Source of the DNA: Neckera pumila
Lineage: Eukaryota; Streptophyta; Bryopsida; Hypnales; Neckeraceae
Reading direction: 5' to 3'
Assembly (NCBI GenBank): GCA_963969595.1
Contig: OZ018414.1
Coordinates: forward strand, 15,359,660 to 15,423,659
DNA length: 64,000 bases
Numbering within the stretch: position 1 is the stretch's first letter; every line of letters starts with the position of its first letter. The translations under genes and the position numbers were made by a program. The notes beneath the pieces are model-generated. The model made no database searches. It had not been told where the DNA came from and was given only the letters and a program-made list of their open reading frames with translations. This document shows, in pieces, positions 2,261 through 57,000 of this stretch.

Positions 2261-3621
2261 ATGGATATGGAATTGGAGGAGATATTCCAGTGGCAGACAC
2301 CATTCTGCTCGCTCTTGGAAGACATTGGCGGCATTGAGGAGGACGGCATTGACAGCATGCTCGACCAAATCGAGCTTCCTGACCTACAAGACGATCTCAT
2401 CCCCAGCGCTGTTGTTGTTGATACCGTCGCAACAAATCTGTCGAGCTCGTCTATCACCAGCAACACGGAGCCAGTGTCGAGTCCACTGTGGCCTTGTGAC
2501 CTTCAAACTTCAGCACTTAACAACAACGGCATCCTAAGACTTCCTCCTGTCCAACTCTCCCTTGATTCTGTAGGATCGCCGCAATCATCCACTGCGCCAC
2601 TGACGGGAGCAGCGCGAGAATCACAAGGCTCTCAACGAGAAGTGCCTTTAACTCCCGCAGCAGCGAAACCTAAGAGAACTCGTGCGACTCCACGTGCATC
2701 GAAGTCGACTCCGAAGGCGAAGAAACCATGTCCAGACCCGGCGGTGGTTACGGAACAGGCGAAGGAGAAGGAGAACAGATTACCGACTCAAGCTGAGCAC
2801 ATCATCCGTGAGCGTCAACGCCGCGACGACATGGCTGCCAAGTACTTGACTCTAGAGTCGCTGCTGCCATCCGCTCCAAAGGTAACTCGAAGATCTATGC
2901 CTGCTCGATGTCGCTGTTTCCTGTCGATCTAATTAAAATGAAGAATATATATTGTGATGCTCTTCTAATAGTTGATGGTTTAAATTAAATAATTATTTTG
3001 CAACAGACAGTGTGTTCATTACAATTGACGGAAGATATGTGTTTCCAATGTTCACAGCGGGAGAGAGCCGTGGTGGTAGAGAGCGCAATGTTGTTCGTGA
3101 AAGACCTGCAACAGAAGCGGAGCGATCTTCTGAAGAGGCGGGCTCAATTAAAGCTCATGGCACCAAGCCAGTCACCGGCGCAGCAAGATCAAAGCAAGAA
3201 AATGGCACCTCAACACGATTCGTCGGGGTTTGTCACGGCCTCTGGCTGTAAGAAGCTGCCGGAGAATTGTAAGACGGATTCCCCAATTTCGTCCTCAATG
3301 GTGGCCACACAGCAGGAGTTGATCACATCGCCGGGCACTTCCAATCCACCGAGCGCGGCGGTAGACGATCCGACCACCGGGAGTGTTCAGCACCTCCATG
3401 TCCACGTCCATTTCTCGGACGACGAGATTATCATCGAGATGGTTTGTCACCAACCTCGCGACAATTTCCAGAGCTTTCTGCTGCAAGCAGTGGAATCCTT
3501 TGGCTTGGACATCGTGCGTTGTTGCGTCCACAGAGTGCCGCATGGATTCCTGCAATGCACGATCACATGCAATAAGGTACTGACCGATCCTTTCGAGTTC
3601 ATTGAACATTTCTGCAATTAG
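2261..3621 (+). CDS. bHLH transcription factor with C-terminal ACT-like domain (two exons)
   Basis: The model joins 2261-2881 and 3058-3621, giving 394 aa. The intron at 2882-3057 is phase 0, with donor AAG|GTAACT and acceptor TTCACAG|CGG. It lies in the bHLH loop, and joining it restores a continuous bHLH. The basic region starts at H180 (HIIRERQRRDD); H180, E184 and R188 form the H-E-R signature of E-box/G-box binders. Helix 1 ends at ESLLPSAPK, and helix 2 begins RERAVVVESAMLFVKDLQQ (residues 208-226), running into a basic coiled stretch. A lysine/proline-rich segment before the domain could help nuclear import. The acidic N-terminus (MDMELEEIFQ...) may activate transcription. Residues about 319-385 (HLHVHVHFSDDEIIIEMV...) have the alternating pattern of a plant bHLH ACT-like dimerisation fold. 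The bHLH core recalls the bHLH95/ZHOUPI-type group, but this is a weak assignment from memory. The ATG at 2261 gives the whole acidic N-terminus. Confidence 0.9.
2882..3057 (+). other. Phase-0 intron of the bHLH gene
   Basis: The 176-nt intron has a GT start at 2882 and an AG at 3056-3057 after a T-rich tract. Reading through the donor gives VTRRSMPARC and then a stop before 2933, with no domain match, whereas splicing joins loop to helix 2 exactly. A second AG near 3006 (caacag) would add about 17 codons inside the loop and is less likely. Confidence 0.85.
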
Positions 3622-6379: not shown

Positions 6380-6858
6380 TTAAATGATTCAACTTGTTCT
6401 TATCTTCAGAAGGATGCTGAGGCCAAAGTGGCCTGTAGATGGCTTTCAAAATTACTATAGAAATTGTACCTACTGGTTCACAAATTGGATCATTTTGGCA
6501 AAGTACCATGGTGATAGGTCTTGTCTTTGGTGGTCTTGGTGAATTTTTGGTCTTAAAATCTGAAGGATGGCCACTGGGTGATAGGTGTTCACTCAAAAAT
6601 CATTCAATTTTTGGACCAATAGGTGCATTTTTTCATTTATATAGAAACAGAGAAAGTTATCTATCAAACACTTTGTTTGTCCTCAATGTTGTTTCAAGGG
6701 TCAAATTCTTTGGGAGAAGTTATCTACAAAACACTTTGTTTGTCCTCAATGTTGTTTCAAGGGTCAAATTCTTTGTTTGTATTGTGAACGAAACTACCTC
6801 AAAAACAAGGCTAAAATTTTAACGTAAGTGAATTCAAAATCCGTTAGCGGCAGATTAA

Positions 6859-7427
6859 CCCCTAAAGGACCAAGCTGCGGGTTTTTTTGGCAACATAGCG
6901 ATTTTGGGCAGCTCACTACAAATGGAGTTTTTATTTTATTTTCTTTAAAAATTTTACACAACATGTGCTCAAGGAATAGCTTTAAAACCCAACAATTTTT
7001 GTAACTATTGACTATATAGTTAAAATGTTATTGCACGATATGCAATTTTCTTTGAACTTTGGATAGCCCAGGCAGTTCAAAAAATTTCTTTAAAAATAAC
7101 TTTTTTTTTTAAATAAAAATTTGAAATTGGTTCTTTAGATTTATATATATATATATATATAGGAAACTTTAAGTCATTCAATTTTTAAAATGTTTTTCAA
7201 AGAAATTTTTTGAGCTGCCCGAGCTGCCCAAAGCTCAAAGAAAATTACATATCATGCAATAACATTTTAACTATATAGTCAATAGTTACAAAAATTGTTG
7301 GGTCTTAAAGCTATTCCTTGGGCACATGTTGTGTAAAATTTTCAAAGAAAAAAAATAAAAACTCCATTTGTAGTGAGCGCTCAAAATTGCTATGTTGCCA
7401 AAAAAATCCAGTTTGGTCCTTTAGGGG
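6859..7427. mobile_element. 569-bp palindromic piggyBac-type MITE (left-end derivative)
   Basis: TTAA flanks are at 6855-6858 and 7428-7431. The ends start CCCCTAAAGGACCAAgct on the left and CCCCTAAAGGACCAAact on the right, read inwards. Almost the whole element folds back: both arms carry the same series (cactacaaatggagttttt, acacaacatgtgc, gactatatagttaaaatg) in inverse order, around an AT-rich centre with a (TA)n tract at about 7140-7160. Each arm matches the left half of the full-length element at 31572-32502, so this looks like an inverted duplication of one end. Confidence 0.88.
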
Positions 7428-7431
7428 TTAA

Positions 7432-9959: not shown

Positions 9960-10620
9960 GATGACTAAGTGAAGGGACTGCTTTATTGACATTCGTGGGA
10001 GTGAAGGGTGGAAATGTCATTTTTATAATGAAATCCATTGTCCATCATAAATCTTCAAAGGATGTGGGATAATTTGAAGATGAGAGCTTGACCGCTCACT
10101 GTCAAAACATAGGAAGTATATGTGAAGTAGAAATTTAAACCTCATTTAGGCATAGTTAGGCATAGTAAAATAACTTTTTTCAAAAGACTTTGAACTAATA
10201 AAAGTTGTAAAATCAAGCTAAATTTCATCTCCCAAAATCCATTTGAAATTTTAAGCGTCCAGTCAAAAGTTATGAACAAAATTCTAGGATGCTTGAAAAT
10301 GTCAAAGAAAATGTTCCTTCCAATCCCTCTATGAAATTTGTTCATAACTTTTGACTGGACGCTTAAAATTTCAAATGGATTTTTGGAGATGAAATTTAAC
10401 TTGATTCACCAACTTTTTGAAGTTCAAATTTTTTGAAAAAGTTATTTTATCATACCTATATGAGGTCTGAAGTTCTACTTCAAATGCAATTCTTGCTTTA
10501 ATTTGAATTGATTGAGTGGTTGAATTCCTAGTAATTCCAATTTACATATCCCACATGGATTGTTTTACTTCGTACTACCCCATACATGAATATAAAGATC
10601 TTGTCTTTTCAATTCTTAGC
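9960..10620. repeat. Foldback repeat family, copy 1 (palindrome 10124-10481)
   Basis: The 358-bp core is an imperfect palindrome. Its left arm begins gaagtag...cctcatttaggcatag and its right arm ends catacctatatgaggtc...ctacttc. The inner arms share ccagtcaaaagttatgaac with its complement. Flanks on both sides also match the copy at 19225-20130 (for example aatgaaatccattgtccatc upstream and tttacatat-c-acatgg downstream), so the repeat is longer than the palindrome. There is no coding capacity. Confidence 0.7.
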
Positions 10621-17285: not shown

Positions 17286-17294
17286 AGCTTTTAA

Positions 17295-18115
17295 CTCTGA
17301 AAGGACCGAGGCCATTTTTATGCCAAAAAACACTCAAAACTGCCATTTCTGTAGCAAAGAGTAAAAAAATGGAAAATTGTTTTTTTTTGTCACATCTAAC
17401 CATATGATCTTATACCTAACTAGTATGACAATATGTGGAAAAAAATTTCAGAATTTTTGACCGCACAAATTGCAAGATATCTGGGTTTAAAGTGAAAAAA
17501 ACAAGTTTTTCAGCACATTGCGGGACTAGATTTTATGACTTTGAACATTTTTAACTTAAATCTTTTGCACTACAGAGTTTTGAGCTTTTAATCATTGTAG
17601 TGGAGAATTGAGTTGAGAGTCTAGGAAAAAAAAAATCCAAAAAAAAACTTACTAATCCAAGTGGTGAGATTGTTCTAGCAAAAAACCTTAACCTTGTGGA
17701 ACTTTTTTATTGGAAAAATTATAAAAATTGCATTTAGAAATGAACCCTACAAGTAATTTTTTTCAGGAAGATGCTCTAAGTGCTCAAAAAACAAGATTGT
17801 CCATAACTCTCTCATAACAAATCCAAATGAAATATATGAAAGCTTTCCAGATAGACAAAAATATAATCTATAAGAAAAAAAAATGTTAAAAAAAAAATTG
17901 CAAATTTTTTTTGCTGCCCCTTGTCCCTTGTTTTGAGCTTATTTGGACATAACTTTTTTTCCTGGGCACAGATTGAGAAAAAAATCATATTCCCGTAAAG
18001 CTTAGCAATTTTTCTATCTTCAAAAAAATTTCAAAAAATCACAACAAATATGCAGCCCATAGGTACTTGCCCAAAATCCCATTTGTGCTCCAAAGGGACA
18101 ATGGTCCTTTTGGGG
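17295..18115. mobile_element. 821-bp piggyBac-type MITE, family B
   Basis: TTAA is present at 17291-17294 and 18116-18119. The left end (CTCTGAAAGGACCGAGGCC) has drifted; the right end read inwards is CCCCAAAAGGACCATTGTCC. It is collinear, in inverse orientation, with 22075-22997, sharing aactgccatttctgtagc, the hairpin around TTGTCC/GGACAA near the end, and gttatg or its complement. AACCATATGATCTTAT begins at 17398, 103 bp from the left end. There is no coding capacity. Confidence 0.85.
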
Positions 18116-18175
18116 TTAAAGAATGCTTTTGAATTTGTATGAAGGTGCTTCAAAAATGCACCTTATATGATAATT

Positions 18176-21860: not shown

Positions 21861-22074
21861 TCATAATATTTAAAGTATTTATCAATTATTTATTTATTAA
21901 CTAAATTAATAACAATTAAAATTTATTATAAAGCTAATAGAGATTTCCTACATTGATATATAACACATAGTTTTATATAACAAAAATGTTACTTTGAAAC
22001 TTGAATATAATTTATAAGGCTAAAATAGGCTCAAAAATAAAGTTTGACCACGTAGCAATGGAATTGGTGCTTAA

Positions 22075-22997
22075 CCCCTAAAGGACCATTGTCCGTTTGG
22101 AGGACAAATGCGTTTTTGGGCAGGTACCTACGGGTTGAAATTTTGTTGTGATTTTTTGAAACTTTTTTGAAGATAGAAAAATTGATAAGCTTTGTGGGAA
22201 TATATTTTTTTTCACAATTGGTGGCCGGGAAAAAAAGTTATGACCAAATAAGCTCAAAACAGGGGAAGACGGGCAGCAAAAAAAAGTGGACAAAAATTTG
22301 AATTTTTCTTTTAAATATATTTTTTCTAATAGATTATATCTTTGTCTATTTGGAAAGCTTTGATTCATTTCATTTGGATTTGTTATGAGAAAGTTATGGA
22401 CATTCTTGTTTTTTGGGCAATTAGAGCATTTTCTTGAAAAAAATAATTTCTAGGATGCATTTTTGAATGCAATTTTTCAAGTTTTTAATTTTTCTTTTTT
22501 TGCATGGTTTATATTACTTTCACAAAAAATCTCACCATTGGAATTAGTGCATTTTGATTCCATCTAAAATGTATTAATATTTTAGATTTTCCTTCTATCT
22601 TGTATCTACTTCTACTTAACAATTTTTTAAAGAATGATAATTAAGTTTTTTTGAATTTTTTTTTTTTTCATAGACTTTCAACTCAATTCTCCACTAAAAA
22701 GATATAAAGCTCAAAACTTTGTAGTGCAAAAATTTTAAGTTAAAAATGTTCAAAGTCAAAAAATCTAGTCCTGCAATGTGCTAAAAAACTTGCTTTTTTC
22801 ACTTTAAAAGCAGATATCTTGCAATCTGTGCGGTCAAAAATTCTGAAAATTTTTCCACACACTCTTATACTAGTTAGGTTTAAGATCCTACAGTTAGATG
22901 TGAAAAAAAAACATCTTTCAATTTTTTTTACTTTTTGCTTTAGAAATGGCAATTTTGAGTGTTTCTTGGCAGAAAAAGGGCCTCTGTCCTTTAGGGG
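22075..22997. mobile_element. 923-bp piggyBac-type MITE, family B
   Basis: TTAA flanks are at 22071-22074 and 22998-23001. The left end CCCCTAAAGGACCATTGTCC and the right end (inwards CCCCTAAAGGACAGAGGCCC) share 12 bp. A short subterminal hairpin TTGTCC...GGACAA follows the left end. GTTATGACCA at 22237, with GGGCAGC about 35 bp later, recalls the same pair in the 6.3 kb element. AACTGTAGGATC (on the - strand) lies 102 bp from the right end. No conserved ORF is present. Confidence 0.9.
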
Positions 22998-23001
22998 TTA
23001 A

Positions 23002-23550: not shown

Positions 23551-24821
23551 TTAACCCTTTAGCGGACCGATTCAAGAGCACAGCAGGAAAAGCTCTGTAG
23601 ACATGGAAATGTGGGATGCCGTGATTGAATCAGCCAACAATTTCTGTACAGAATCCAACCGTATGATCTTATGTTGTATCAGTTCTAGAATGCAGAAGTG
23701 AAAACTTTTCATTCATATATATTGGCGATGCGCAGATTATAAGGTTTGACCAACGGGAAAACGCCGTTGACCACTACGGGCAGACACTGCACTCCTACTG
23801 CACATGCAGTTATGGGGTTCTCCAATTTTTTTTTAAAATCTGCAAAAAATAGGAGCAGCTCTACCTCATCTTCCAAATATGTCCGAATCAAAAAATCCCT
23901 GAAATTGCTAATCGTTCGCTACCTGCGCACCTTGCAATGCTGCACAGTCGGAGCGTCTTCTGCAGAAACGCTTCTCCTGGCTTTTCCGCGTCTCTACGTG
24001 GACGTGCCCGGCATGCAGGGTTGGGAAGAGTTTGCGCTGCCCCATTGACCGGCAGCTTTCTCGGTCGATGCCCAGACTGAATAGGACAGAAAGTTTGACG
24101 TCACTTCCGGGGATGAGGAAGAATGCTTCCTCCATAAAATACTGTTTCCAATCTGAACATCGGATTCCGATTGAAAGGAATGTGAACACGAGAATGTGCT
24201 GGTTCTAACATTCGCGGAACATGTGCAAAACAAATATCATGTTAGCAATACACTTTGTCACTGTGCGTGGACGGCATGTGCCCATCGCTTGAACTTGTCG
24301 AAAGGAAAAAAAAAATCAAAATCAACTTCCAGACACTGTTGTTACAATGTTTCACATAACAAAAACGGAGCTTTGCATTACTTCAGTTTTTTACATTCAC
24401 AGTAACTGCACCGACAAGGAAGCCCACTAAAACTTCTCGGTATGCTGCTCGTCGCTCTCACTTCCTCTCTATATTACCATCCACAACATCTTCAAAATCT
24501 CCAAGGCAATGTCCAACACCACAAAATGATGGTGCCATTCTGAATCTGCACCGTCTGCCTACGCCACTGGAACAGTGGTCACAAAACATCTTCTACGTCT
24601 ACCACTGCTCCAAACTACCTCATACTCATCGTCCTTGTCAATATACACATACGCTGGAGCTAAGCAACAGTCTTGACGGTTGCTAGAGCTCCTATAACTG
24701 CTACAAGCCGCTTCTTGTCTATTCACGACCTCTATACAAGTGAAGCACACCATCATCATTCACACTTTCTACAAGCTGCAACGTCCAGGTCGTCTGCCTA
24801 TCGCCTCAAGACAAAATGACT

Positions 24822-27800
24822 TCATTGGAAACACTCTCCGAGATGAAGGTACACGCCGCCACATTGCGGGCACAGTAAATTTGTCCTCCTCCTACCCATA
24901 CAGAATCTGCATTTCCGACGCATGTTGCTGCGAACCAATCCATGAACACCTGGACTGTGAAGACGAAAATGAGAGACCGCTCCCCTCTGCATAGACCATG
25001 GCCTCGTCAATTCATCAGCTAGCTGAAGCTGGAACTGCAAATGTGTTTGCGGCCCTTTGCAAAGCTGGTCAGCGGCTACTTTGTGCAAAATGTACGCATT
25101 GACAATTGAAGTGTCCACCAAATACAGGAACACTTTGTGCCACCACTTATGGCTTCTGGTTTGGCACGAGTATGAGCCTCGAAGCTGATCGCTTACGTCC
25201 ACACCTCTCATGAAGTCGACGTAACCTTTGTGAACAGGCGAGGTGTCCAAGTCCTTGACCTCGTCATCCACTTGTCTTGGTACTGTTGGCCACACAACAT
25301 TCGGTGCTGGAACTGGTGTGTAGTAAGTGGACAGCAGAACTACAGGTCGACGATCCACGAAGACAACACACGAAATCTCGCGGCTGCTGTGCATGCGCCA
25401 ACGAAGGGTTCCTTGTGGCTCCCTCGACAAAGCCTTCATGTCAAGCAAAGACTTCGGCAATCCAAGGCGATTGATTCAAACTGTCCCAACGCCGAAGGTG
25501 CCAACGGATAGCAGCTCAGAAAGGAGTTTCACGGACGTGAAATAGTTATCGGTGCATACAACGTGAAAGCGACCATGCAACCCTTGCATCAAATGGAGCA
25601 CTACCTCATGAGGGGACTTGGGTTCGCCAGCCGGACCTCCTGTCAAGGATTGACGACTTTCAGAACCCGTGTAAATTTCGAAGTCATATATGTACTTGTG
25701 AACAGCATCAGCAAGGCACCATACTTTCACACCCCAACGCGTTGGCTTCCGTGGCATGTATTGGCGTACGGGACAGTACTTGCCCTTATAAGCCACCATA
25801 GTCTCATCGACGGTGACCTCCTGATGAAGATTCCAGTTCGCCTTGAATCGGGTCCTCATCTCTACAAGCAACCAACGCATTTTTCTCAGACGATCCAACT
25901 CTGCATCTTCGTCAGGAACACCAACAACTCTATCATCAGCGACATGTAAACAACGACTGATATCCTCGTAACGTCGGCATGTCATTATATTGGATATGCT
26001 GGGACAGTACAGAAATTGGTTCCCGCGGTTCCAATAGCTACGGTGACTGGGGAGCCTTTTTATGCCCATGAGCAAGTTCACTCCAATGTATGCTTTCAAC
26101 TCCGGCTTCTGAATGCGCCACCACCATCCTCCACCAACCGGTAAGCGTGTTCTGGGATGCAACTGACTCGCATATCTATTCATCTCGTCGCAAATACGTT
26201 GCAGCGTCCTCTCAGACCAGAATCGAGAGAAAAGAGCCGTCTTTGATGGCATTCGCAGGATTGGAAAGGTAGGTCCGCTAGTAGGTCCTCTGAAAGGTGG
26301 GCTTCCATGCCCGTAAGACCAATGATGCATCGCCCACGTCTGCTCGGCGAATGCAGCCAGAAATGCGAGACGTGCTGCCGCTGCAGACACCGGTCTGTCG
26401 CGATGCCTTTGTTGCGGACGAGGCGCAGCACGACCTGTTCCTTTGGGCATTCCTTGTGCTGCAGGTGCCCCTGTCGATGGCCCGGCCGCCGTGTTCACGC
26501 TTGCCGTAACGGGTCGTCGACATTGCTGAACATGAGGTACAGTCTCTGTTGGTGCACTGTTCTGAACGACTTCGACAGGTGGCACAGTCGCAGCAAATTC
26601 GATCGGCGGTGCATTCAGAGGACCGTCGGGTGGAGGGTCCTCTGCGATGAATGCAGCTGACGAGTGACTATCGTCCATTCCTCCTATGTGACGTACAGGA
26701 ATGCCACACAGGGGAAGAGCTATTTCATTGACTTCATCAGCCGTTTGCGATTGTAATGGCTGTCTCCCTGACAAAGCGCACGGGACATGTGCGGCGACAG
26801 TCCCCGACGTCCCTTCATGCGAGTCACAGTGCGTCGGAATCCGGAACGACGTCGGCATGGCAGTGACAGGAGAAGAAGTCATCTGCGGCGTCAAAGCCAT
26901 TTGGGTTCGAGGTTCCACAGTACCTGGAACTGTGGTGTTGGAGTGCTGAAGTTGGTTCGTTCCAGGCGTGCTTGGAACGGAGTCTCTGAGAATCGCTCGC
27001 AAAATTTGAGCTAAGGGGATGTCAGTGGTCAATGATCGCTGAAGCTCAAGCGACGCAGGACGGGTAGTTGAACTGACCGTCACGCTACAGGGCAAGTGTG
27101 CTGAAGAATCGGTGGTGCATCTCTGCACCGGGGGCGTGCTCAAAGCTTCCGGCGATTCAACAGCAGTGAAGGCAGTGGAGGCGGTGTGCTGACTGAATCC
27201 ATCGAAATCGTACCAAGACTGCCAGGAGTTGTCCTCTACAGGTCGGGTACTGTGAAATTTATCGAAAAAATCTGTTTTCGACCAGGACTGAGCACCCACA
27301 TCTGAGTTGAAACAGCGGTCAAGAGAAGCAGTGGATGAACCAAAAGATTGAGGAGTGATCTGCATAGCGCTTGCCGTGTCTTGACCGCTCGTGTATCCTT
27401 CGTTGTTGTCGTCGACAATGAAAATGGGCTCCACCTCCCCGTATGGTACGTGAAGCTGTCTACCGTTGTCGAGAAGAACAATGTAAATGAGCATGTCTGT
27501 CTGTGGCTGGATGTATGAATCCACAGCCAGTCCTACAGCGGAAAGGTCATCCGCTGGCGTTGCTTCACTGGGTCCTTCATGTGTCATGGCCACTGTGTAG
27601 ACACGGACAGGAATAGGGTTGTCGAGCGTGGGGGAGAACGTCTTCACGGTAGTGGACAATGCGGACCAGCGCGTTGTAATTGGAGGTACGTTCGGCTTGT
27701 CACTGGTAGTGGCCGCCTTCGTCATTGAATCATGAAGTGGCACGTTGAATGCAGGTGCAACTACTTGAGACAGAGGAAGAGGACGCGCTGATGACTCCAC

Positions 27801-28001
27801 TTGTGTGTATCGCGCTTTTTGTCTCTTGCTGTCATCACATGGAGTGTGCACCTTCTCTTTGCCGTGCTTTCTTTTCCGAGATTGGCCGACGTCTTCTACA
27901 GAAACTGTTGTTCTGTCGCTGTGTTGTGCAGATCGAGTGGCTTGCCTAGTTCGAAAAGCTGGAGCTTCTTGAGTAGCGGAGGCTTTGGCGGAGGCCGACA
28001 T
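24822..28001 (-). pseudogene. piggyBac transposase, intact except for one in-frame TGA
   Basis: Starting at ATG 28001, the frame runs 841 codons to a TGA at 25476-25478, then continues in the same frame for 218 more residues to a stop at 24822. Full span is 1059 positions. Residues 1 to about 550 are Ser/Thr/Pro-rich and probably disordered, with a basic RKRKHGKEK near residue 42 that could be a nuclear signal. The DDE_Tnp_1_7 domain follows. Catalytic Asp candidates are D732 (TVDETMVAYKG), D818 (VCTDNYFTS) and D935 (MRGVDVSDQLRGSYS), matching the piggyBac DDD triad. The C-terminus is cysteine-rich (CRFCMGRRRTNLLCPQCGG), as in the zinc-binding tail that recognises the ends. The TGA falls in FGVGTV(stop)INRLGLPK, where the family usually has Arg or Lys; CGA to TGA is the change expected from deamination of methylated CpG. 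A truncated product would lack D935 and the tail. Assembly error or a very recent mutation are both possible. Confidence 0.92.
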
Positions 28002-28040
28002 GCTCGCAACGACAATGCGAAATGGTGTCCCTAAAGATAG
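28002..28040 (-). other. Possible intron acceptor just upstream of the transposase start
   Basis: On the - strand a T-rich tract (attttcattttctatctttag) ends at about 28033 and is followed by ggacaccatttcgc and then the ATG at 28001. This is a good-looking acceptor, so the transposase mRNA may have an upstream non-coding or coding exon in 28040-28720. No donor could be chosen with confidence. Confidence 0.35.
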
Positions 28041-28058
28041 AAAATGAAAATAAAGGTA

Positions 28059-28427
28059 CTAGCTGGACGCAGCTCCAATGCACAGTCGACAGAGGCACAC
28101 TGGAGAGGTGACGTTGGGCCAGAGGAGGACACAAAGGGCGTGGTTCACTTCTTCGGAGAATCCTTGGGGATGTCCCTCAGGTAAGCGTTCTGTCCAACCT
28201 AGAATTCGGGCACAATGGTGTCGGAACAAGTATCGCAGTCCTCTAGGCGTATCAAGTCTTCGAACTCCTTTCTTGACAGCTCGTCGGAGTAATTGCCGTC
28301 GGTCCAGGAGTCCAAGGATTTGTCTTGTTTGTCCCTCGCTCGCTCCGACAGTAGATGACCACTGCCGGACTGTGTCTCGAATGAGTGGCAACGTCGGTGG
28401 CAAATTGTAAGCGGAAGACATCAGCAC
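28059..28427 (-). CDS. Hypothetical ORF upstream of the transposase within the piggyBac element
   Basis: This 122-codon frame (MLMSSAYNLPPTLPLIRD...) lies on the same strand, 57 bp upstream of the transposase start. It is rich in Leu and Arg and contains CARILGWTERLPEGH. I recognise no domain. Another open frame on the same strand lies at 28504-28719. Either could be a second element-encoded protein, an upstream transposase exon, or chance in this less AT-rich segment. There is no comparative support within the window. Confidence 0.25.
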   Translation of the reverse strand: MLMSSAYNLPPTLPLIRDTVRQWSSTVGASEGQTRQILGLLDRRQLLRRAVKKGVRRLDTPRGLRYLFRHHCARILGWTERLPEGHPQGFSEEVNHALCVLLWPNVTSPVCLCRLCIGAASS

Positions 28428-29892
28428 ATAGAGGACATGAGGTCTTCAAGCTTGTGGCATGACATTCACAGCGACGAAGAAAGTAGAGCTATCTTCACAG
28501 GCATCAGAATTCCCTGTCGGTGTGATCAGCACTTGTATAGGTGTCACGAACAACACCGTCAGTGATGAGCTGTGGAAGTAGATGACGCAGCGTCCGATTG
28601 TATGTTGGTCCCTGCAGCTTCCAGTTGTCGACGACTGATGACGTGGGCGGATTCGTCAGAGACCTACGAATGTTCAATGTCGACACTGAACTCCGGACGT
28701 CTTGCATGGACTGCTGCACTCTGATGTAGCTGGCGTTTCTGTGCAGGTATTGATGACAGTGGCAAGATGCAAAGCGACTACTCAGTAATGGTAACAGAAG
28801 ATGTGTGACTGAAGCAGTGCACAGGTGAATGGAGACTCAGAATGAGAAACGGGTGAAGACAAAGCTCACATAGGCAGAGAGTACAAGAACTGGAGAAGAG
28901 AAGAGAAGATTGTATTTGAAAGTTTTGAGAACTTCATGTGTGAAGGAAATACTCCAATGTAAACAAATGTATGATTAGATTTCTGTAAAATGAAATGTGT
29001 GAAGGCAAAGATAATTGTGTGTGAGCTGTGTGACACTACATGTTTCATTTCCGTTTTATGAGTTACTGAAGAGTGTCATCCAAGTAGAGAAATCAGGAGT
29101 TATTGAAATCTAAGGACAGGCTAGTCTTAGCAGCCACTTTGGAGCAGTAATTGAAGGTATTGACGGCTTGTAAACTTGGACGCTGTCTAGAGCCTTCCTT
29201 TTTGCTCGACTTATGCAAGTATTCCACATGTAACTCTACACATAGTGTGCCTCTATGAGCAAGCTAAACAGTAAATGCAAGTTGGAAAAAACAAAACTGT
29301 CTTCAGTGCAAATAAGTGCGCTTAGTCCGACTTGTGCTCCTCTGGAAAGACTGTGTACATACTCTTCGAATGCTATTTTTCAATGTATTAGTGACTGCAT
29401 TGAAGAGGCAGCCGGAATTGTTATGTAAACCATTTTTTTATGGAACCTTTCTACTGAAAGAATGCCAAGTGTGAAAAGTTGATGCCTTGTCGCCTACACT
29501 ATTTCATCATGCAGATTTTCGCTGTCGTACCGATTTCTTAAAAAAGTATTTAAAAACATTCTTCGAGAAATTTTCAGGTCAAGTGACATCATCCGCCGTA
29601 TTCAACTGTGGCTGCCCAGCAGGCGAAATTTTCTGACCGTTTCTGGTCATAACTCACCGCTTCCAAGACTGGCTGACAAAAATTTCAGCGATTCCTGGTA
29701 CCTTTGCTCTTGCGGATTTATCAAAAAACACAGAAGTGCTATTTGGGGGAGGACTTCCCGGTTTCCTGTGCCCAAGTCATCCAACTGTCTCCACGAAATT
29801 CGATGAATGAATTCATGTCAGTGCCTGCGAGATATGGCTGTTCTCTTCTGTACATCGTCCACTTTCTGGACGTCGACCCGCTAAGGGGTTAA

Positions 29893-30317: not shown

Positions 30318-30321
30318 TTAA

Positions 30322-31244
30322 CCCCTAAAGGATTAACATGCGTTTTTTGGCCGTATAGAAATTTTGAGCAGGTACGTGTGACTAGAGATATCCATATTTG
30401 AGGCTGAAATTTTAATAGAAGGTGGGGGCAAGGAATATCTTCATGTGTACCAAGTTTCATGACATTTTGAAATACGAGTCAAAAGTTGTAACCTAATATG
30501 TTGCTTTTTTTCGTAACCGGGCAGTTTGGGCAGATCAGAAAAAATCATTTTTTCCGGAATTTTTTTTTTGAAATTGGTTCTCTACATTTATATATACTTA
30601 AAAAGCTTTGATTCATTCCATTTCAATCAATGAGTCAAAAGTTATGAGGGTTTTTGGTTTGCGGGCAGTTATGGATTGTCTACTCTAAAAAAAATTTTAA
30701 AGTCGTTTATTTAACTCAATTTCCAATTTTTTGGGAAAAAAATAAAATCCTAGGATGTAAATTGATTATTACAACATTACAACCGTTGGGATTGGTATTT
30801 TTAAATTCCATGATTAAAATTTTAACAATTTAGTATTTTGAATCATTTCTACTTCTTTCTACTTACTATTTTTTTCCTATATGTTGTACAATTCCAAATG
30901 ATGTGAAAATTTTCAAGCATATAGACAACTTGTTTAGGAAACTGAATTCAAAGAAGCACCACCTTTATCGGCATTTTTTCATTGAAAAGTGAGCTTGCAA
31001 AGTGCAGCTGCCTGGTTTTTCGCAGGATTGAAAAAATGATTTTCAAGACTTTGAATGCTTATATCTTATGATCCACACGGTGGAATTTTCTGAAATTTTT
31101 ACCACATGTTTTCAAAATACCATATTACAAGATCCTACGGTTTTATTTGTCAAAAATTGTTTTTATCCAAAAATTTGGTAGTTGTATTAGAAATGGCAGT
31201 TTTGGAGCGTTTTTGGTGAGAACATAGTCATGAAACTTTAGGGG
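30322..31244. mobile_element. 923-bp piggyBac-type MITE, family C, near-identical to 61378-62298
   Basis: TTAA flanks are at 30318-30321 and 31245-31248. The left end is CCCCTAAAGGATTAACATGC and the right end (inwards) CCCCTAAAGTTTCATGACT, so only the first 9 bp are a perfect TIR. Along its whole length it matches the reverse complement of 61378-62298 with few differences by eye. AACCGTAGGATC (- strand) lies 102 bp from the right end. It has no conserved ORF. Confidence 0.92.
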
Positions 31245-31571
31245 TTAAGTTAGGCTATTTGTTTTGTTTTGTTTGTTACTGTGCTTTTTTGGGACCGTGC
31301 ATCCCTTGGGCACGTTTTTTATATGTTCGGAAAGCTCTCCAAGAGGAGGGATGCACATGCTTTGTATTCTAGTGTTCCGACCTATTGTATGGAAGTGATA
31401 AATTTTAGTTGTTTTTTAATTTACTTTTATAATTAAAAAATCACTTTTACATTTATTTTGGTTGGAGCAACAACAGAAGGCAAACTTAAAGTATGTTTAC
31501 ACTTGATGTTAAAGAGTGTTGTTATTGAGGGTCTTAGGAACAAATTTAGACCTACTTCTTGACCTAATTAA

Positions 31572-32502
31572 CCCCTAAAGGACCAAATACCGTTTTTTGA
31601 CAATATAGCAATTTTGGCCAACTCACTTTGAACAAAGTTTATATTTTTTTTCTTTGAAGTTTTCATACAAGATGTATCCGAGGAGTAGCTTTGAGGCCCA
31701 ACAATTTTCATAACTTTTGACTACATAATTAAAAAGTTATTGCATGATATGTGATTGTTATTGATCGGCGGGCAGCCTGGGCTGTTCAAACAAATTCTTT
31801 AAAAATCACTTTTTAAGAAAATAAAAAATTGAAATTGTTTTTTAGATTTATACATACGCGGAAAGCTTTAAATCATTCCATTTTTTATTAATGAGAAGAA
31901 AGTTATGAAGATTCTTAGTTTAACGGTAGTTATGGAATTTCTACTCTAAGTAAACTTTAAAGTCATTTATTTAACTCAATTTTCAATATTTTTGAAAAAA
32001 ATCAAAAGACTAGGTGTAGATTGTTTATTACAACATTACAACCTTTGGGATTGGCATTTTCAATTCCATATCTAAATTCTTAACAATTTTATATTTTGAA
32101 TCATTCTCTACTTCTTTCTACTTACTATTTTTTTCCTATATGTTGTGCAATTCCAAATGATCTAAAATTTTTCAAGTATGTAGCCAACTTGCCGTGAAGA
32201 ATGTAATCGAAGAATACCCACCATTTTAGAATTTTTTCATACAAATGTGACCTTGTGAAGTGGAGCGGCCCAGATTTTCACAGGGGCAAAAAAAGGATTT
32301 TTGTGAATTCAAACATTACTATCTTGCAATCCTCACAATGGACATTTCTGAAAATTTTACCACAACTTATCAACCTAGTGTACTACAAGATCCTACAGTT
32401 ACGTGTGTCCAAAAATGTTTTTTTTCTAAATTTTGGTACTTGTATTAGAAATGGCAGTTTGGGAGCGTTTTTGGTGAAAACATAGTCTTTGACCTTCAGG
32501 AG
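31572..32502. mobile_element. 931-bp piggyBac-type MITE, family C variant with A-type left half
   Basis: TTAA flanks are at 31568-31571 and 32503-32506. The left end is CCCCTAAAGGACCAAATACC; the right end has drifted (TTGACCTTCAGGA before TTAA). The left 300 bp match the arms of the palindromes at 6859 and 41263 (ggagtagctttgaggcccaa, aacttttgactac), while the right half matches family C (tctacttctttctacttact, tatatgttgtgcaattcc). AACTGTAGGATC (- strand) is 102 bp from the right end. Confidence 0.88.
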
Positions 32503-32546
32503 TTAACCCTACAAACATCACCACTAACACCAAGTGCAAACATATC

Positions 32547-33269: not shown

Positions 33270-34492
33270 TCAAAGCCCCCCATATCTACGATCAGCTCCT
33301 TCCACCCATTGGTTATAGGCAGCCTCATAAGGAAAAGACTCCAAGGAAAAAATTTTCTGTGCATACATTCCTACAACACACTCTAGATGAGTATCCAAAG
33401 CATTTCTCAATTTGTTCTTCAGGAATGCCAAAGAACTGAAACATCGCTCATCCTCAATAGACCCTATGACTTGCACAATTGCAATTTGAGCTAATTTGTA
33501 GTACTCAGGAAAAGCTTTGACCCTGAGTACAGTACAAGAATCTAAATATTGCCAAAGTCGGGTGAGTGGGTTCAAGTCATAAGGCGGCTCCATATGCTTC
33601 TTGGAATTGTTGAGCATGGCCATCTTGAACAAACTCTGCTCAGTTTCCAACCTGTACCTGTCCAAAATAGGAGGAACCAACTGCTTCACCTTATCAGGGT
33701 CAATTAATTTAGGTTCACAGTAGAATGACATAAGGATGGACAAATGCTTAGGGAAGCACTCTTCAGCTTCAGGCTGCAACCAATATTGGGGGTACACCAC
33801 CCCCAAAGCATCCATAACATTGTGGGATGGAAATCGAGCAGTCAACTCCCTCAACAGCTATCGGGCTGCCCCTGTAAAAATCAAGTATTATGTAATCAGC
33901 CATCTAGGACCAGAAATAGATCAATGGCAAATTCAATAAAATTACAAAGAAGAATTTAAACAATAACCAAAACAAAAGTCAGCCTAAACAAAAGAATTCA
34001 AAATAGTAGTCAAAACAAAAGTCAGTCAAAAAGATTCATAGTAAGCATTTAATTTACAAGGAAGAAAAATACAAATAAGACATATGTTTAAAACCTATGC
34101 ACTCTGTCTTCACAGAGTTGATAATTGATGCCATCACATCTCTATCCACTGGTGATCCATCATGCATAGCCCATAGCTTTTCATTATTGGCCACAAAAAC
34201 GAGCTGGGCAGATTCATTGTTTAGATCAGACATCCATTTGGTGTGGATCTGACTGTGAAAACACTCAAAGAGGTTCTTAAAAGCCCAAAAATCGTCCCCA
34301 GCAAAGGCAGTGGTCTTGTCCACGTAATGTGTATAGTTGGCCTTCAGCTATCTTAAGTGCAGCTACAAAATCACATATAAAAACGTCCCTCTTTTGTGCA
34401 AAAGTGACCAGCAAATCCACTGTTTCTAGGAGCGGCATTAGAGCAATCATTCCAAGAAGTGAATATGGGTCCAGCAGGAGGTTTAAACATTT

Positions 34493-37400: not shown

Positions 37401-38187
37401 TGTTATTAAGCAATGACCAATGCAAATAAGTTCTAAGTTTGACCTGAAAATGAAGCTCATAATTGCTGGGTCCCAATGCTGGTCAAGACAAGCCAGCGTT
37501 GTCTCCACTTGATGGCCTCTGAGGAGAACCGATTTGGGGTTGACAATTATAAAGTGAAAAAAAAAAGGAAAGCAGCCAACAATGACAAAATCACATAAAT
37601 CGAGACAGGAGTTGGAAAACGACGAGGGCTCTACCAAAACACGGCAGGGCCAGGATGGGAGCATTTTTACTGCGTAGTGGCTGCCACCTAGTTCTGTGAC
37701 AGCAAAATGAAGCTCTACCAAAAATCGAAGCATAAGCTGGCTATCGGACTGACCACTATAAGAAATCCACGTTTTAGGAGACGTTAGCGTAACCTAAACA
37801 GACGCATTTTTGTGGACGCAAAATAAAACAACGTGTGTTTTTATGTCAATAATAATGTCCAATGTAATATCTGGATGTTACATTGGACATTATTATTGAC
37901 ATAAAAACACAAGTTATTTTATTTTGTGTCCACAGAAATGCGTCTGTTTAGGTTACACTAACATCACCTAAAACGCGGGTTTCTTATAGTGGACGCAACA
38001 AACAGCTGAAGAACTTCGTAGTCCTAATTTCTACCCGCCCCAAACTCCACAGTTGACACCCACCCCAAAAATCTGAAACAATAGGGCATAGAAACTACAA
38101 CATGCAAATTGGAAATCCATAACCTTCAAGTCTCCAACCATGGCTTTCCAAAAAAACAAAAAGGACAAAGTTTGGGGATGTTCTCAC
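34493..38187 (-). other. Intron 1 (about 3.7 kb) of the hAT-derived gene
   Basis: The donor at 38187 (GTGAGA) and acceptor at 34493-34495 (CAG) join codons in frame across the two parts of the hAT core (MGKNDAAE to KCLNLLLDP). The intron contains the CACTA-type MITE at 37754-37991 and otherwise no recognisable gene. Open frames at 36604-37733 lack domains. Confidence 0.7.
37754..37991. mobile_element. 238-bp CACTA-type MITE, near-perfect hairpin, 3-bp duplication GAC
   Basis: The ends are CACTATAAGAAATCC on the left and, read inwards, CACTATAAGAAACCC on the right. This resembles the En/Spm end CACTACAAGAAAA. GAC lies directly outside both ends (37751-37753 and 37992-37994), the 3-bp target duplication expected of CACTA elements. 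The arms are complementary over nearly the whole length (gtgtttttatgtcaataata and its complement near the centre). There are few mismatches, so the insertion is fairly recent. It sits in the intron of the hAT gene and is non-coding. Confidence 0.92.
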
Positions 38188-39963
38188 CTCAGCAGCATCG
38201 TTCTTCCCCATGTCTGCCTTCATTTTTGCAACAAGAGTCCTGTAGTCTGCCAGCAATCTCCTTAGCGGCTCAAGCAGTGACACCCACCTGGTTGAAACTT
38301 GAAGGAGAGGCTTGAGTCCTTTCGTTTCCATTACCTCTGCTAATTTTTGGTATTCAGAGAACCGCTTTGGACTCTTGCTAAAATACGAGTGAGTCTTCTG
38401 AATCACCTGCTCGACAACTGCAAACAAAGGTAAGGCAGATAATGATTTTGCTGCCAGATTGCATCTGTGGGCCATGCAATGCACCCCAATACAAAACGGA
38501 GCAAATTTCGTAGTGATTTGGATGGTCACTCCACTGCGGACGCCCTGGAACGTGCTGACGCCATCAGCCCCAAAGCAAATCAATCTCTTTGATACTTGCT
38601 CGAAAGTGAGGTTGTCACCAAGCTGTAAGGCCTTCATTATGATCAAAGTGAGGCTGTCTGCACCAGACCCATCCACCAAGCGCTGCAAAGAAATCAAAAG
38701 TAGAATTCTAACATAACTTTCTACCACGTATGCATGAATGCATAGCCAGCTCCCGTTATCAACAGTTGTGACCTCGTCACAAGTCAAAGACACAAACTGG
38801 GCAGCTTCTAGTTTTTTCTTCATAGCTTCTTTGACTTGGTGGTACAAGGAATCAGCCATCTGCCAACCAGAATTATCGCTCCAGTGCATCCTTGGCAAGT
38901 TAGGAACGTTGAGAAAAGCATAAAGTGCTTCTCTTTCCTCATACTCCAACATGGGACGGCCACTTGCCAAAATCTGATAAATCGTGCATAATTGCACGGT
39001 TTTTTTGGAGCGAGCCATTGATGGATTAGCCTGCACTTGCTGAAGCACAGATGCTTGCTGCATACTTGCAAAAAGCCGTAAGTTGACTTGATGACGACAA
39101 GTTTTTGAAACATACCACTCACCTTTCTTTACTTTGTACCTTGTCATATCAAATGCAGCCTTCCTCCTTCCTTCATGTTTTAAAAGTGTATCCCACTTTG
39201 GACCCAAGACCTTCGGGTTCTTTTCAAAAGTGGAGCACACAGTACATTTCACAAAGTGAATGTGTCCATCAGTCCCTCGGATAGGCTCTGCCCAGACCAA
39301 CTTTGCAGCCCACTCATTTTGGAAGCGTCGAGTTTTGTCATAGTTCAACTTTGCTTTCTTGGATGGAGGCGGAATCTCCTTGAAGTCGTCGTCAGACTGC
39401 AGCTCCTCTTCTCCATCGGAAATGCACACCAAATCTTCTCTCAGTTGGTGGTGCGCATCTACAAATGATGCTACATCTTCAACGAGGCCATTGCTTGTAC
39501 TTCCATGTTGTGACTCAATCTGAGGTTGAGGATGCAGACCCTCTGTGTCTATAGACACAGAGATGAAGGAGGTGTTTTGGGAAGGAAGTTGAGAGCTCAG
39601 AGACTTGGGATCTGCTAACGTTAAGTCACACAATAGAGGCAAAGGCTGTGGGTAGGACGAGTTTCGTGAACTGTTGAAGTATTTGGCGATCGATGTGGCT
39701 TCTCTAGCACCTCGACGAGCTGTACTGTCTTGAATGCAGACCTCCTTGCCCTTCATCTCGCGCCATTTGAGAGCAACCTCGCGCTCAGTCTTGCGTGCCT
39801 CTGCTCGCACTACCTTTGCAGAGATGGATCCCGCACCCTCCTGCACAGTTGTACCAACCCGTCCAGCAACCTCCTGCACAGTCACCTCCCCGAGTAGAAT
39901 GTTGATGCTCGCAGGCGCTCCAGTCACAGCCATGGCTCCCTCCACATTTTGAGAAACGGCCTC

Positions 39964-40012
39964 CTCACCCTCACCTTCACCTTCACCCTCACCTTCACCT
40001 TCACCCTCACCC
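39964..40012. repeat. Hexanucleotide microsatellite encoding a Gly-Glu run
   Basis: About eight units of CACCYT on the + strand translate as (GE)n at the N-terminus of the hAT-derived protein on the - strand. The repeat is in frame, so unit gains or losses would not break the frame. Confidence 0.9.
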
Positions 40013-40041
40013 ATTGCAACCTCACTCTGCCTAACCAACAA

Positions 40042-41258
40042 ATCACAGAAACAAGAAGGAACTCAAAAAACCAAACTCCCGTTGGCGATCAAATCAAACC
40101 ATGGGGGGTTACTTAAAGCATAAACACCGCAATGTTTACCACCACCTTTGGCGAAGAACTCTCAAACCATGGTGATGTTGATAGGACCCAAAACCAAAAA
40201 CAGAGCTCACAAAGGAGACACAAAGCGATGCAAGTGTATTTTAATCTATAACTCATTGCACCCAACTAAAAGACAATGAAATGACCAAAGAATAGGAAGA
40301 GTGATCAAACCCTAATATACTCCACAAGCGATTTTTGTTGCCTCCCATCTGCATTCTAAGCCCAAGCCTAATGCAGTAAGTGCATTGGAAACCGAAGCGC
40401 CTCCCAATGCTGTCCATCTCCATTGCCCTAAACACCAGCGCCTCCAACAGAGTAATGCAGGCGCCGCCAAAACACCTTTACAAATGAACTACAAATCACC
40501 CAAAATCAATAGCACAACACCACAACTTCACAATGCCATAGCGTCCTGTGGAGACAATTAAGGGAGAGGTGGCGAAATTTGAATTCTAGTCAGAGTGCAA
40601 AGATCTCTATTAGATCTGGCGATTGTGCATTGGAAGCCAACATCCTTCTGGCGATGAAGAAAATTGCGAAACAAGAAGGCTGGCGATGAACACAAACGGG
40701 AAACAAGAAGGCTGGCAATGAAGAAGAACCTGAAAAAGGAAGGAAGGCGATGGACAAGTGGTGCCCGTTGCGCGGCGGGTGACGAAGGTGGCAAGCAGGT
40801 GGCAAACAGGCGCCCAATTTCAAATTTTGGGCGCGTAGGGAGTGCGCCAGGAGGCGACGGGCTTGGCCGCGACAGGCGCTATCAGGCCACAGGCTAGATA
40901 ACCTCAGTGGGAGTCTGGCCCTGGAAACTTTTTTTTTTTTAAAATCCTAAAGGCCTGTTTCGCCTGGAATTTTGGCCGGGTGATTTCTAGCACCATTTCG
41001 CCAAAAAAAAAAAAGGCTGGTTGGATTAGGCCCACCTTGGCTGTCACACCTCCTTTCAGAAAGGTCCTTCAGGACTTCGTCAGGAGTAGGGCCGAGAAGT
41101 TACTAATATATTTACTTCTACAGTACCTACACTAAATAGTGAAATGAGGTTGCCTCACACTAATATCTCAACATTCTACAATATATAAATATATGAATTT
41201 TCAGAGCTAGAGCCCTGTATAAGGTAGTATGCTCTTAAACCCTCAACGCCTTGCTTGT
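40042..41258. other. Upstream region of the hAT-derived gene
   Basis: A less AT-rich stretch (40560-40900) lies upstream of the - strand gene and may hold its promoter or the end of the transposon. It includes a 31-bp direct duplication at about 40662-40722 (acaagaaggctggc-atgaa). No protein domain is seen on either strand. CAGGGCCAGACTCCC on the - strand at about 40909-40923 would fit a hAT terminus but no matching end was found. Confidence 0.35.
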
Positions 41259-41262
41259 TTAT

Positions 41263-41629
41263 CCCCTAAAGGACCAGTCACCGTTTTTTGGCAACATAGC
41301 GATTTTGGGCAGCTCACTACAAACGGAGTTTTTAGTTGTTTTTTTGAAAATTTCACAAAACATGTGCCCAAGGAGTAGCTTTAAGGTCCAACAATTCTCA
41401 TAACTTTTGACTACCCACAAATTGGAATTCTTAATAACTCTCACTTCATTAAACAAAATGGAGTGATTCAAACTTGTAGTCAAAAGTTATGAAAATTGTT
41501 GGACCTTAAAGCTACTCCTTGAGCACATGTTTTGAGAAATTTTCAAAGAAAAAAACTAAAAACTCCATTTGTAGTGAGCTGCCCAAAATCGCTATGTTGC
41601 CAAAAAAACGGTGTTTGGTCCTTTAGGGA
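41263..41629. mobile_element. 367-bp palindromic piggyBac-type MITE with TTAT on both sides
   Basis: The left end is CCCCTAAAGGACCAGTCACC and the right end (inwards) TCCCTAAAGGACCAAACACC. The arms of about 160 bp carry ggcaacatagcgattttggg, cactacaaa-ggagttttta and aactttttgacta-type blocks in inverse order. The flanks read TTAT at 41259-41262 and TTAT again at 41630-41633. The arms match the left half of 31572-32502, as in the 6859 element. Confidence 0.88.
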
Positions 41630-41639
41630 TTATTAACGG

Positions 41640-45232: not shown

Positions 45233-45262
45233 TATTTTTTTTTAAATTTATTTTACATTTAA

Positions 45263-46169
45263 CCCCTAAAGGACCAACATGTGTTTTTTGGCAATATAGA
45301 AATTTTAGGCAGGTACTTGTAACTAGAGATTTGCATGTTTTGGGCTGAAATTTTAATAAAAGGTGGGGACAAGGAATATCTTTCATATGCATAAAGTTTC
45401 ATGACATTTGGAAATATAAGTCAAAAGCTATTGCATATACGTAGTTTGTTTCTCAACTAGGGCAATCCGGGCAGATAAAAAAAAATTACTATTTTCAAAA
45501 ATAGAAATTTGAAACTGGTTTATTAGATTTGTATATACGTAGGAAGCTTTCAATCATTCCATTTTGATCAATGAGTCAAGAGTTTTAGTTTGCGGGCAGT
45601 TATGGATTCTCTACTCTAAAATATACTTTGAAATTATTTATTTTACTCAAATTTTCATTTAAAAAATAAATAAATAAATTTGTAGGATGTGTATTGATTA
45701 TGACAATTACCACCATTGGAATTGGCATTTTTCAATTCCAAAACAAAATTCTCAACAATTTAGTATTTTGAATCATTCTCTACTTCTTTCTACTTACTAT
45801 TTTTTTCCTATATGTTGTACAATTCCAATGATCTGAAATTTTCAAGCATGTAGCCATCCTACCCTGAAAAATGAATCCAAAGAAGCACAACCATTTTGGA
45901 ATTTTTCATAATGATATGACCTTGTGAAGTGTAGCTGCCAGTTCTTTTGCAGGGCCAAAAAAAAGATTTTTACCACTTCAAATGCTAATATCTTGCAATC
46001 TATACAGTGGAAATTTCTGAAATTTTTTCTACATCTTTTCAAATCAAAGTACTACAAGGTCTCCGGCTACATGTGTCCAAAAGAGATGTTTTTCAAAAAT
46101 TTGGTAGTTGTACTAGAAATGGCAGTTTTGGAGCATTTTTTATGAGAACATAGTCAAGGAACTTTAGGA
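45263..46169. mobile_element. 907-bp piggyBac-type MITE, family C
   Basis: TTAA flanks are at 45259-45262 and 46170-46173. The left end is CCCCTAAAGGACCAACATG; the right end has drifted (CTTTAGGA before TTAA). It is collinear with 30322-31244: ggcaggtac-tgt-actagag near the left, aatcattctctacttctttc in the middle and ggcagttttggagc near the right. More diverged than the 30322/61378 pair and therefore older. Confidence 0.88.
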
Positions 46170-46680
46170 TTAAACTATAAAATTGCATTTCTCATTCTAC
46201 CTTTATTTATGGTGAAAATTATAGATTATTCTAATAGACATATAATTGATATAATTTGATTTCTAACTTTAGCATTAAAAAATTACAATAATTTGATTTT
46301 CCATAAAAAAAATTTGGAAAAAGAAAAAAAATAGAATTTTTTTTTCCACTAGCATAAAATATCAAAAGTTTATACATCTGTTAAATAGAAGGGTAAAAAA
46401 TTGGTAAAAAAATTCACACTAATCTTCACTACTATTTATATGTCTTGAAAAAAATTAGATCGCTTTTGCTATTTTTATTTATTTACATTTAATTTTGCAA
46501 CAAAATGATAACAATTACAATTCTTCACAAAACAAATTGAAACTTCTCACAGTGTTTAATAATTCATAGTTTCAAATAATATAAATATAAATTTTTTGTT
46601 GAACACAATTTAAAAGTCTAAATTTAGTTCAAAAAAGAAGTTTTATCTTTTCACAATGGATCAATTTGTTTAGGGGTTAA

Positions 46681-48880: not shown

Positions 48881-48884
48881 TTAA

Positions 48885-49125
48885 CCCCTGAGCGTCCAAG
48901 AGACGGGATCATGTCTCTTGAAATTTAAAGATTTCTTTGTTTGCCTTCTATAATCTTTTCAATAGTACGGTCAAAGGACATGTCCCTTTCCCTTGAGCTC
49001 CGGGGCTTGTCTCCACTACCAATAGGTACGGTTAATTTATGTAGATCTCTTGTTAGATGATAGTATGATTGAAATGAGTTCAAAAGGGTCTAGATTTTAG
49101 TAAACACGCTCTGGGCGCTTAGGGG
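48885..49125. mobile_element. 241-bp piggyBac-type MITE with termini close to the 6.3 kb element
   Basis: TTAA flanks are at 48881-48884 and 49126-49129. The left end is CCCCTGAGCGTCCAAGAG and the right end (inwards) CCCCTAAGCGCCCAGAGC, an imperfect TIR of about 18 bp. These carry the AGCG core that the 6.3 kb element has (CCCTTTAGCGGACC, CCCCTTAGCGGGTC) and that the 0.9 kb families lack. The interior is unrelated to families B and C and non-coding. Confidence 0.8.
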
Positions 49126-49669
49126 TTAAGCATCTAGAATTGTCATCTCTCCAAGGTGGAATTTGTGGATTTATACTTGCAATTGGAGGACTAAATATTT
49201 TTAGCAATTCAATTGAATATTAAACCATAAACTTATGCCATTTTACAAAGTCAAATATTTTTTTCATAAAGAAAATGCTTGAAAAACATGTGCAAGCTTT
49301 TTGAAATTGTAGACATAATTGAAATTGAAAAAATAGTTGGTAGACAATTGTAAAAGTTCATTCATAGTAGGCCAATTGTAGTTTCACATACACATTTACA
49401 TACAACATGATATCAATATCGATATAGAGGGGACCATTAAGTTCATTGTGAACTAACATAATATTTTAAAATTCCTATTAAATTCAAAATATATCTAAAG
49501 TTATAATTTACATCCATAATTAGATTTAGACATTGTTAGGGGACTTTACTTTAGGATTTTCTTAAAAGATATCATTTGATTGTACTACAGATTTGAATAC
49601 TTGCAAGAGTATTGGAAGCCACCATAAAAATGAAACTTAGTAATAAAATACATTTTGCTATAACTATAT

Positions 49670-49890
49670 CACTACAAGAGAATGGGATGTCTCAAGTGAG
49701 TTTTTAAGTATAATCCTAGACATAAGGTTTTAAGTAATGACCTTAAAAGCAATTTTTAGCAAAATTTTATTAGAAGTACATGTATTTCTAGATTTTTTTG
49801 CTAAAAATTGCTTTAAAGGTCATTACTTAAAACCTTATGTCTAGGACTATACTTAAAATCTCACTTAAAACACCCCATTCTCTTGTAATG
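49670..49890. mobile_element. 221-bp CACTA-type MITE, hairpin
   Basis: The left end is CACTACAAGAGAATGGG and the right end (inwards) CATTACAAGAGAATGGGG, very close to the En/Spm terminus. The arms are nearly complementary throughout, around a short centre near 49785 (aagtacatgtatttct). The 3 bp outside the ends are TAT and ATA, so a 3-bp target duplication is not exact, although ATAT occurs on both sides. It is non-coding. Confidence 0.82.
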
Positions 49891-56080: not shown

Positions 56081-56085
56081 CTTAA

Positions 56086-56996: not shown

Positions 56997-57000
56997 TTAG

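Follow-up and report, generated by a model that had tools for sequence, protein, structure and literature searches.

The window analysed here, by which we mean the whole stretch of 64,000 nucleotides from the genome of Neckera pumila (C7:15359660-15423659, inside a 24.67-Mb contig of an assembly of 339.5 Mb in 18 contigs), contains a 6.3-kb piggyBac transposon, and the question raised by this locus is whether the transposon is a nearly intact copy stopped by one TGA codon, as an original prediction had proposed, or a dead copy whose interest lies elsewhere. Our analysis indicates that this is quite probably the dead copy of a piggyBac transposon with two genes, one of a population that is large and diverse and has recently been mobile in this genome. 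The window element itself is an ordinary dead piggyBac copy, and, to judge from the sequences, the distinction lies in the surrounding genome, with its large, partly open and recently mobile population and its conserved second gene. Comparison of the copies showed that most of those examined carry, upstream of the transposase, a conserved and apparently separate gene for 120 amino acids, here called ORF B (open reading frame B).

The element occupies positions 23555-29888 (6,334 bp, target-site repeats excluded) with its genes on the minus strand, and two full-length copies with other flanks, L009 and L010, were found elsewhere in the genome. TTAA target-site duplications were observed on the left (23551-23554) and on the right (29889-29892), and the terminal inverted repeats CCCTTTAGCGGACCGA (23555-23570, plus strand) and CCCCTTAGCGGGTCGA (29873-29888, minus strand) both start with CCC and are alike at 13 of 16 positions. 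The predicted TTAA on both sides and matching CCC-type ends were thus borne out, and the element shows both the target-site duplication and the short inverted CC[C/T] ends of the piggyBac superfamily. A 16-base subterminal repeat at 23642-23657 and 29846-29861 was weak. The GC content of the element (0.49) differs from that of its flanks (0.31 and 0.35), as could be the case if the contig or the element were a contaminant or an assembly artefact, but such an origin is extremely unlikely, as the contig around the window is very large and C4 and C10 hold full-length copies flanked by other sequence; the contamination against which the original prediction had been hedged did not materialise, relatives being found on C1-C10 and also on C11.

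The transposase frame (24798-28001, minus strand) starts with the ATG at 28001 and has its natural end at the TAG at 24798-24800, an extent supported by both copies and relatives. It is interrupted by a TGA at 25476-25478 (position 842), with the same frame on either side, and by another TGA at 24822-24824 (position 1060), which precedes the last His of the zinc finger. The predicted frame of 1059 positions, from the ATG at 28001 down to 24825 with the first TGA within it, was recovered with its three catalytic Asp residues, and the DDE_Tnp_1_7 domain (PF13843) was matched on both sides of the first TGA (E 2.2e-53 and 8e-11), the part before it (25479-26237) holding D732 (25806-25808) and D818 (25548-25550) and the part after it (25092-25472) holding D935 (25197-25199). 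In an alignment of relatives of at least 400 amino acids (55 rows), D732 was conserved in 54 of 55, D818 in all 53 with a letter there, and D935 in 47 of 48. Of the 60 columns with at least 90% conservation, the window matches the consensus in 56 (0.93), in comparison to 0.79 to 0.93 for six relatives. The frame contains two stops in 1061 codons, whereas about 45 would be expected from base composition and 21 to 45 were counted in the five other frames, and its openness is therefore beyond chance. The piggyBac identity, the TTAA target and the DDD transposase were accordingly supported: the domain with its DDD triad and the transposase fold are present, and the predicted Cys-rich tail corresponds to a Cys/His zinc-finger region (24801-24905, minus strand) whose pattern is shared with most relatives reaching that far and is kept in the frame, although severed by the TGAs in this copy.

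What did not hold was the view that the frame is broken only once. The TGA at 24822-24824, which had earlier been taken as the end of the frame, is by alignment a second nonsense codon and not the natural end, because relatives and six copies read on through it and the window frame keeps the same His on its way to the TAG at 24798-24800. This His lies two codons past the TGA and was found in 29 of the 30 relatives with a letter there, and the C-termini of L009, L012, L013, L014, L017 and L018 read CFQRSH(F/Y)(V/S/A)LRR. Any product would end at the first TGA and lack both the zinc finger and the third catalytic Asp. With two in-frame TGAs the window copy lacks the unbroken transposase gene of an autonomous element and is therefore non-autonomous.

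To place these breaks, we compared the element with its closest copies. A genome search with a 1-kb probe gave at least 42 matches, window included, on C1-C10 (40 of 45 candidates were scored), and only two close full-length copies were among them: L009 on C4, identical to the window element at 6,191 of 6,342 aligned bases (97.6%), and L010 on C10, identical at 5,735 of 6,329 (90.6%; 89.7% in BLAST, gaps included). At both TGA places L009 has sense codons, and it has two stops elsewhere, while L010 has a sense codon at position 842 and many breaks, so the three copies are broken at different places. The search for a copy reading through position 842 was therefore successful in both cases, yet both copies are broken elsewhere; a family of many copies sharing the TGA, which would have marked it as old and dead, was not seen, and the intact sister copy that had been thought probable was not found for this subfamily. 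It is thus very unlikely that the window element is nearly intact apart from one TGA and that an unbroken sister from its subfamily exists elsewhere: the absence of the first TGA from L009 and L010 and the young appearance of the copy (CpG observed/expected 0.86 inside the element, 0.23 and 0.39 in the flanks) speak for this reading, but the second TGA, the breaks in both close copies and the lack of a third close copy among the 42 matches speak against it.

The same comparison gives an indication of age. With L010 as outgroup, about 6,300 bp were compared, over which the window element has 73 changes of its own and L009 has 76, mostly C>T and G>A, and the end branch in the protein tree was 0.007 for the window in comparison to 0.029 for L009. 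The synonymous divergence (dS) between the two was 0.042, with a ratio of nonsynonymous to synonymous divergence (dN/dS) of 0.51, as expected if selection yielded to decay. Assuming that plant DNA accumulates roughly 5-10 substitutions per billion sites per year, the divergence corresponds to a few million years. The proposed very recent break is compatible with the stop at position 842 being absent from L009 and L010, with the 73 private changes and with the short end branch.

The wider population was sampled through 29 copies, namely the window element and L009-L036. Another subfamily shares about 67% identity with the window element. Five of its copies, two on C1 and one each on C2, C7 and C8, measure 6,181-6,183 bp, are flanked by TTAA, carry terminal repeats and are 98.6-99.3% identical, and two of the five have an unbroken transposase frame of 959 codons; L021 and L022 are further, more decayed members. 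TTAA and a terminal repeat on both sides were found in 19 of the 29 copies (two doubtful), and the core is unbroken in one frame in four, the whole frame being seen unbroken in two of those four. Genome-wide, PF13843 was found in at least 116 places (all 116 scored above the cut-off, of 872 first-look candidates), 35 of which have no internal stop by hand count; this search added the relatives on C11, and none was found when it was run on 14 control genomes. The idea that the superfamily is rare in land plants does not fit this genome, where both these domains and a family of short elements described below are abundant. In working copies the transposase would bind the terminal repeats, excise the element at TTAA and reinsert it. 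The window copy, which keeps both ends and has no working transposase, would be movable only if a transposase from elsewhere recognised those ends. The proposal that it could be moved in this way loses the intact source within its own subfamily, while the unbroken frames of the 67% subfamily are a possible source of a trans-acting transposase. Two diverged piggyBac neighbours, L023 and L027, were also noted at C8:11.65-11.66 Mb, the starts of their probe matches being about 6.6 kb apart.

The second gene emerged from the comparison of copies, the codon-usage scan of the upstream region being uninformative for it. A second block of DNA similarity between subfamilies, upstream of the transposase, covers 28117-28365 of the window and lies within ORF B (28059-28421, minus strand), which is located just upstream of the transposase, carries CxCRxC near its C-terminus and has its own stop. 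ORF B was matched in 28 of the 29 copies. Between subfamilies its dN/dS was 0.148 and 0.177 for two pairs, and for a third pair, saturated at synonymous sites, the ratio of nonsynonymous to synonymous proportions (pN/pS) was 0.233. A genome search with this single protein as query (150 of 212 candidates scored, distant relatives being lost) gave at least 128 matches. Within 6 kb of the 116 transposases, a match was present upstream on the same strand in 41, downstream in one and on the opposite strand in none, in comparison to a mean of 0.115 and a maximum of 2 for 200 random placements. Even among the 74 weakest matches (below 49 bits), 16 lie upstream of a scored transposase and 58 do not, and the pairing therefore extends to distant lineages.

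The position of ORF B just upstream on the same strand raises the alternative that it is a 5' exon spliced to the transposase instead of a separate protein. The two frames agree in three of six compared copies (window, L011 and L017), and some distant relatives of ORF B sit in longer frames of up to 377 amino acids. However, the C-terminal part, including CxCRxC, is conserved. Of 28 loci, 21 match the pattern, and in these a stop comes 1-8 codons after the motif (seven loci were unmatched, and L016, among the 21, has an additional stop inside the motif). On reading, the frames disagree in L012, L015 and L016, the N-terminal frame of L012 being itself broken. We consider the exon unlikely and the separate gene the better reading. 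A further frame in this region, ORF A (28504-28836, minus strand), was rejected as a gene, since tblastn over 13 sequences matched it in the window, L009 and L010 only and it has stops in the latter two.

The product of ORF B would be small and basic, with conserved His and Cys residues (HHC, CxCRxC) and a conserved LFRHHCARILGW. The latter together with CxCRxC suggests metal binding, and the protein probably binds nucleic acid. Most likely, though this is a guess, it would assist the transposase by binding to it or to DNA, in end recognition, regulation or nuclear targeting. No Pfam family was matched (best E 0.093, for one of 6 members) and no chain in PDB (best E 0.31), and no homologue was confirmed in viral or prokaryote contigs by scans seeded with two short peptide patterns; these searches did not extend to eukaryote and metagenome proteins. 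Several points count against the two-gene reading of the population: the role of ORF B is guessed, its frame contains stops in 15 of the 28 copies and many copies of it are decayed, no ORF B was matched beside the transposase of L019, 75 of the 116 transposases have no match within 6 kb upstream in the single-protein search, and the 42 probe matches included no unbroken member of the subfamily to which the window element belongs.

The N-terminal part of the transposase is much less similar between the two subfamilies than the core. Residues 1-560 are 25-32% identical to those of the 67% subfamily, in comparison to 69% for the core, and no homologue was found for them at E 0.01 among 7,994 scored candidates. 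To the eye, a patch at about residues 150-195 (27417-27554, minus strand; GLAVDSY...LDNGRQLH) is similar to the other subfamily, and it is a possible SH3/Tudor-like unit. Its resemblance to P0050, P0088, P0005 and P0032 is at most weak (E 0.08-0.5 for P0050 and P0088, not significant), a single-sequence fold of residues 100-220 gave no usable fold (predicted local distance difference test score 42.5), and pN/pS was 0.574 for the patch and 0.572 for the rest of the extension, which argues against a specially conserved domain there.

In comparison with known systems, the window transposase is 21-23% identical in the aligned core to piggyBac (6x67 and 6x68, which we take to be piggyBac of Trichoplusia ni) and piggyBat (9c0f), and its frame of about 1,060 positions compares with 594 and 578 in these solved chains; the window element differs from them by the 560-residue N-terminal extension and by ORF B. 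Environmental piggyBac proteins from database clusters (P0001-P0005, P0019, P0022 and others) are closer, at 35-43% identity over the core, and share the catalytic residues and, in most that extend there, the zinc finger. One tree was built from 18 chosen environmental relatives and those 19 of the 29 copies in which a single match spans 420 residues or more. The copies form a clade of their own, with a stem of 0.70 and support 100/100, that excludes the environmental proteins, and the window and L009 are sisters. In a tree of 57 rows of at least 395 amino acids, window included, the window groups with P0002, P0019, P0022, P0035 and P0037 (support 92/75). Among the relatives listed, the one with a named host, the mosquito protein P0124, is distant. 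Plant transposons with two genes are known from PIF/Harbinger, with its Myb-like gene, Mutator and En/Spm. These have a second gene beside the transposase as found here, but belong to other superfamilies, and ORF B gave no Pfam match.

The window also contains ten short, related non-autonomous TTAA elements with CCCCTAAAGGAC ends: E1 (6855-7431; 577 bp, palindromic), E2 (17291-18119; 829 bp), E3 (22071-23001; 931 bp), E4 (30318-31248; 931 bp), E5 (31568-32506; 939 bp), E6 (41259-41633; 375 bp, palindromic), E7 (45259-46173; about 915 bp), E8 (53814-54672; 859 bp), E9 (56082-57000; 919 bp) and E10 (61374-62302; 929 bp). They add up to 8,203 bp, or 12.8% of the window, which has 28 sites resembling this terminal repeat in comparison to 0-6 in 20 shuffles. 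Elsewhere, 28 loci (252 kb, mostly piggyBac elements by choice) had 12 such places in 10 loci, and the window is therefore richer than this sample. E4 and E10 have 903 of 929 bases in common (97%), and at least 40 full copies of E10 exist in the genome, these two included: all 40 scored, from 5,522 first-look candidates, were full length (one short of the last base) and 96-100% identical.

Exact TTAA is present at 16 of the 20 ends of E1-E10 with symmetrical CCCC ends directly next to it, and the TTAT on both sides of E6 fits a four-base repeat. TTAA with CC[C/T]T is given as the mark of piggyBac miniature inverted-repeat transposable elements (MITEs) in a coral study (PMC2872659), whose CMITEs are like E1-E10 in TTAA repeats, CCC ends and lack of coding sequence, but are about 100 bp long in comparison to 375-939 bp and come from another host. 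Membership of E1-E10 in Tc1/mariner or PIF/Harbinger, with a likeness to piggyBac only, would agree with the lack of recognised coding sequence, with a single 15-base match (E 0.042) to the 6.3-kb element and with the fact that TTAA contains TA and TTA/TAA, but the exact four-base repeats and CCCC ends make it improbable. More probably, E1-E10 are piggyBac-type passengers and, as that match is all that their interior has in common with the 6.3-kb element, their driver is probably another lineage of the same superfamily. E11 (48881-49129; 249 bp), also flanked by TTAA, has ends CCCCTGAGCGT and CCCCTAAGCGC, which are nearer the CCCCTAAGCGCG of some full-length elements, and is possibly a direct passenger of the two-gene elements.

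A bolder view of the population would be that piggyBac is here an obligate two-component system, an old pair that also stands beside highly diverged lineages, still active, in a superfamily that has filled the genome with thousands of short passengers and would be a main DNA transposon of a plant, a setting in which piggyBac was considered marginal; we regard it as tentative and rather doubtful. The piggyBac transposon is a main tool of genome engineering and is generally described with a single gene. If a conserved partner gene accompanies it in a natural lineage, this would reveal how piggyBac activity is regulated or enhanced, and with at least 116 transposase domains, some of them open, and nearly identical copies, current activity is directly testable. 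In the literature, piggyBac is listed among angiosperm MITE superfamilies in a review (PMC10004981) and among plant superfamilies in another (PMC10794571), and an animal survey mentions its isolation from plants (PMC10813416); two plant-genome tables count little of it, with 1,230 pieces (122 kb) for C-fern (PMC6890710) and one piece for Stipa (PMC8319324), and passages of two further papers (PMC10619864, PMC13325672) concern subjects other than native piggyBac elements. A two-gene piggyBac or a survey of piggyBac in land plants was not found among the papers listed by this search, which covered few subscription journals and carries no claim that none is published.

The sole host gene recognised in the window is a basic helix-loop-helix (bHLH) transcription-factor gene with two exons (2246-3621, plus strand; intron 2882-3057), identified by a bHLH match (E 3.5e-06) and a weak plant ACT-like tail (E 0.025, below the cut-off), with MYC2 as its only match among solved chains at E 0.1 (E 0.0041). 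By the genes of the window alone, a land-plant host would be likely. On reading, the frames at 33273-33857 and 38095-40062 (minus strand) resemble parts of hAT-type transposases, with no Pfam match above the cut-off, and palindromic short elements of other families, 77-91% self-complementary, lie at 37753-37992, 49662-49898 and 10120-10485.

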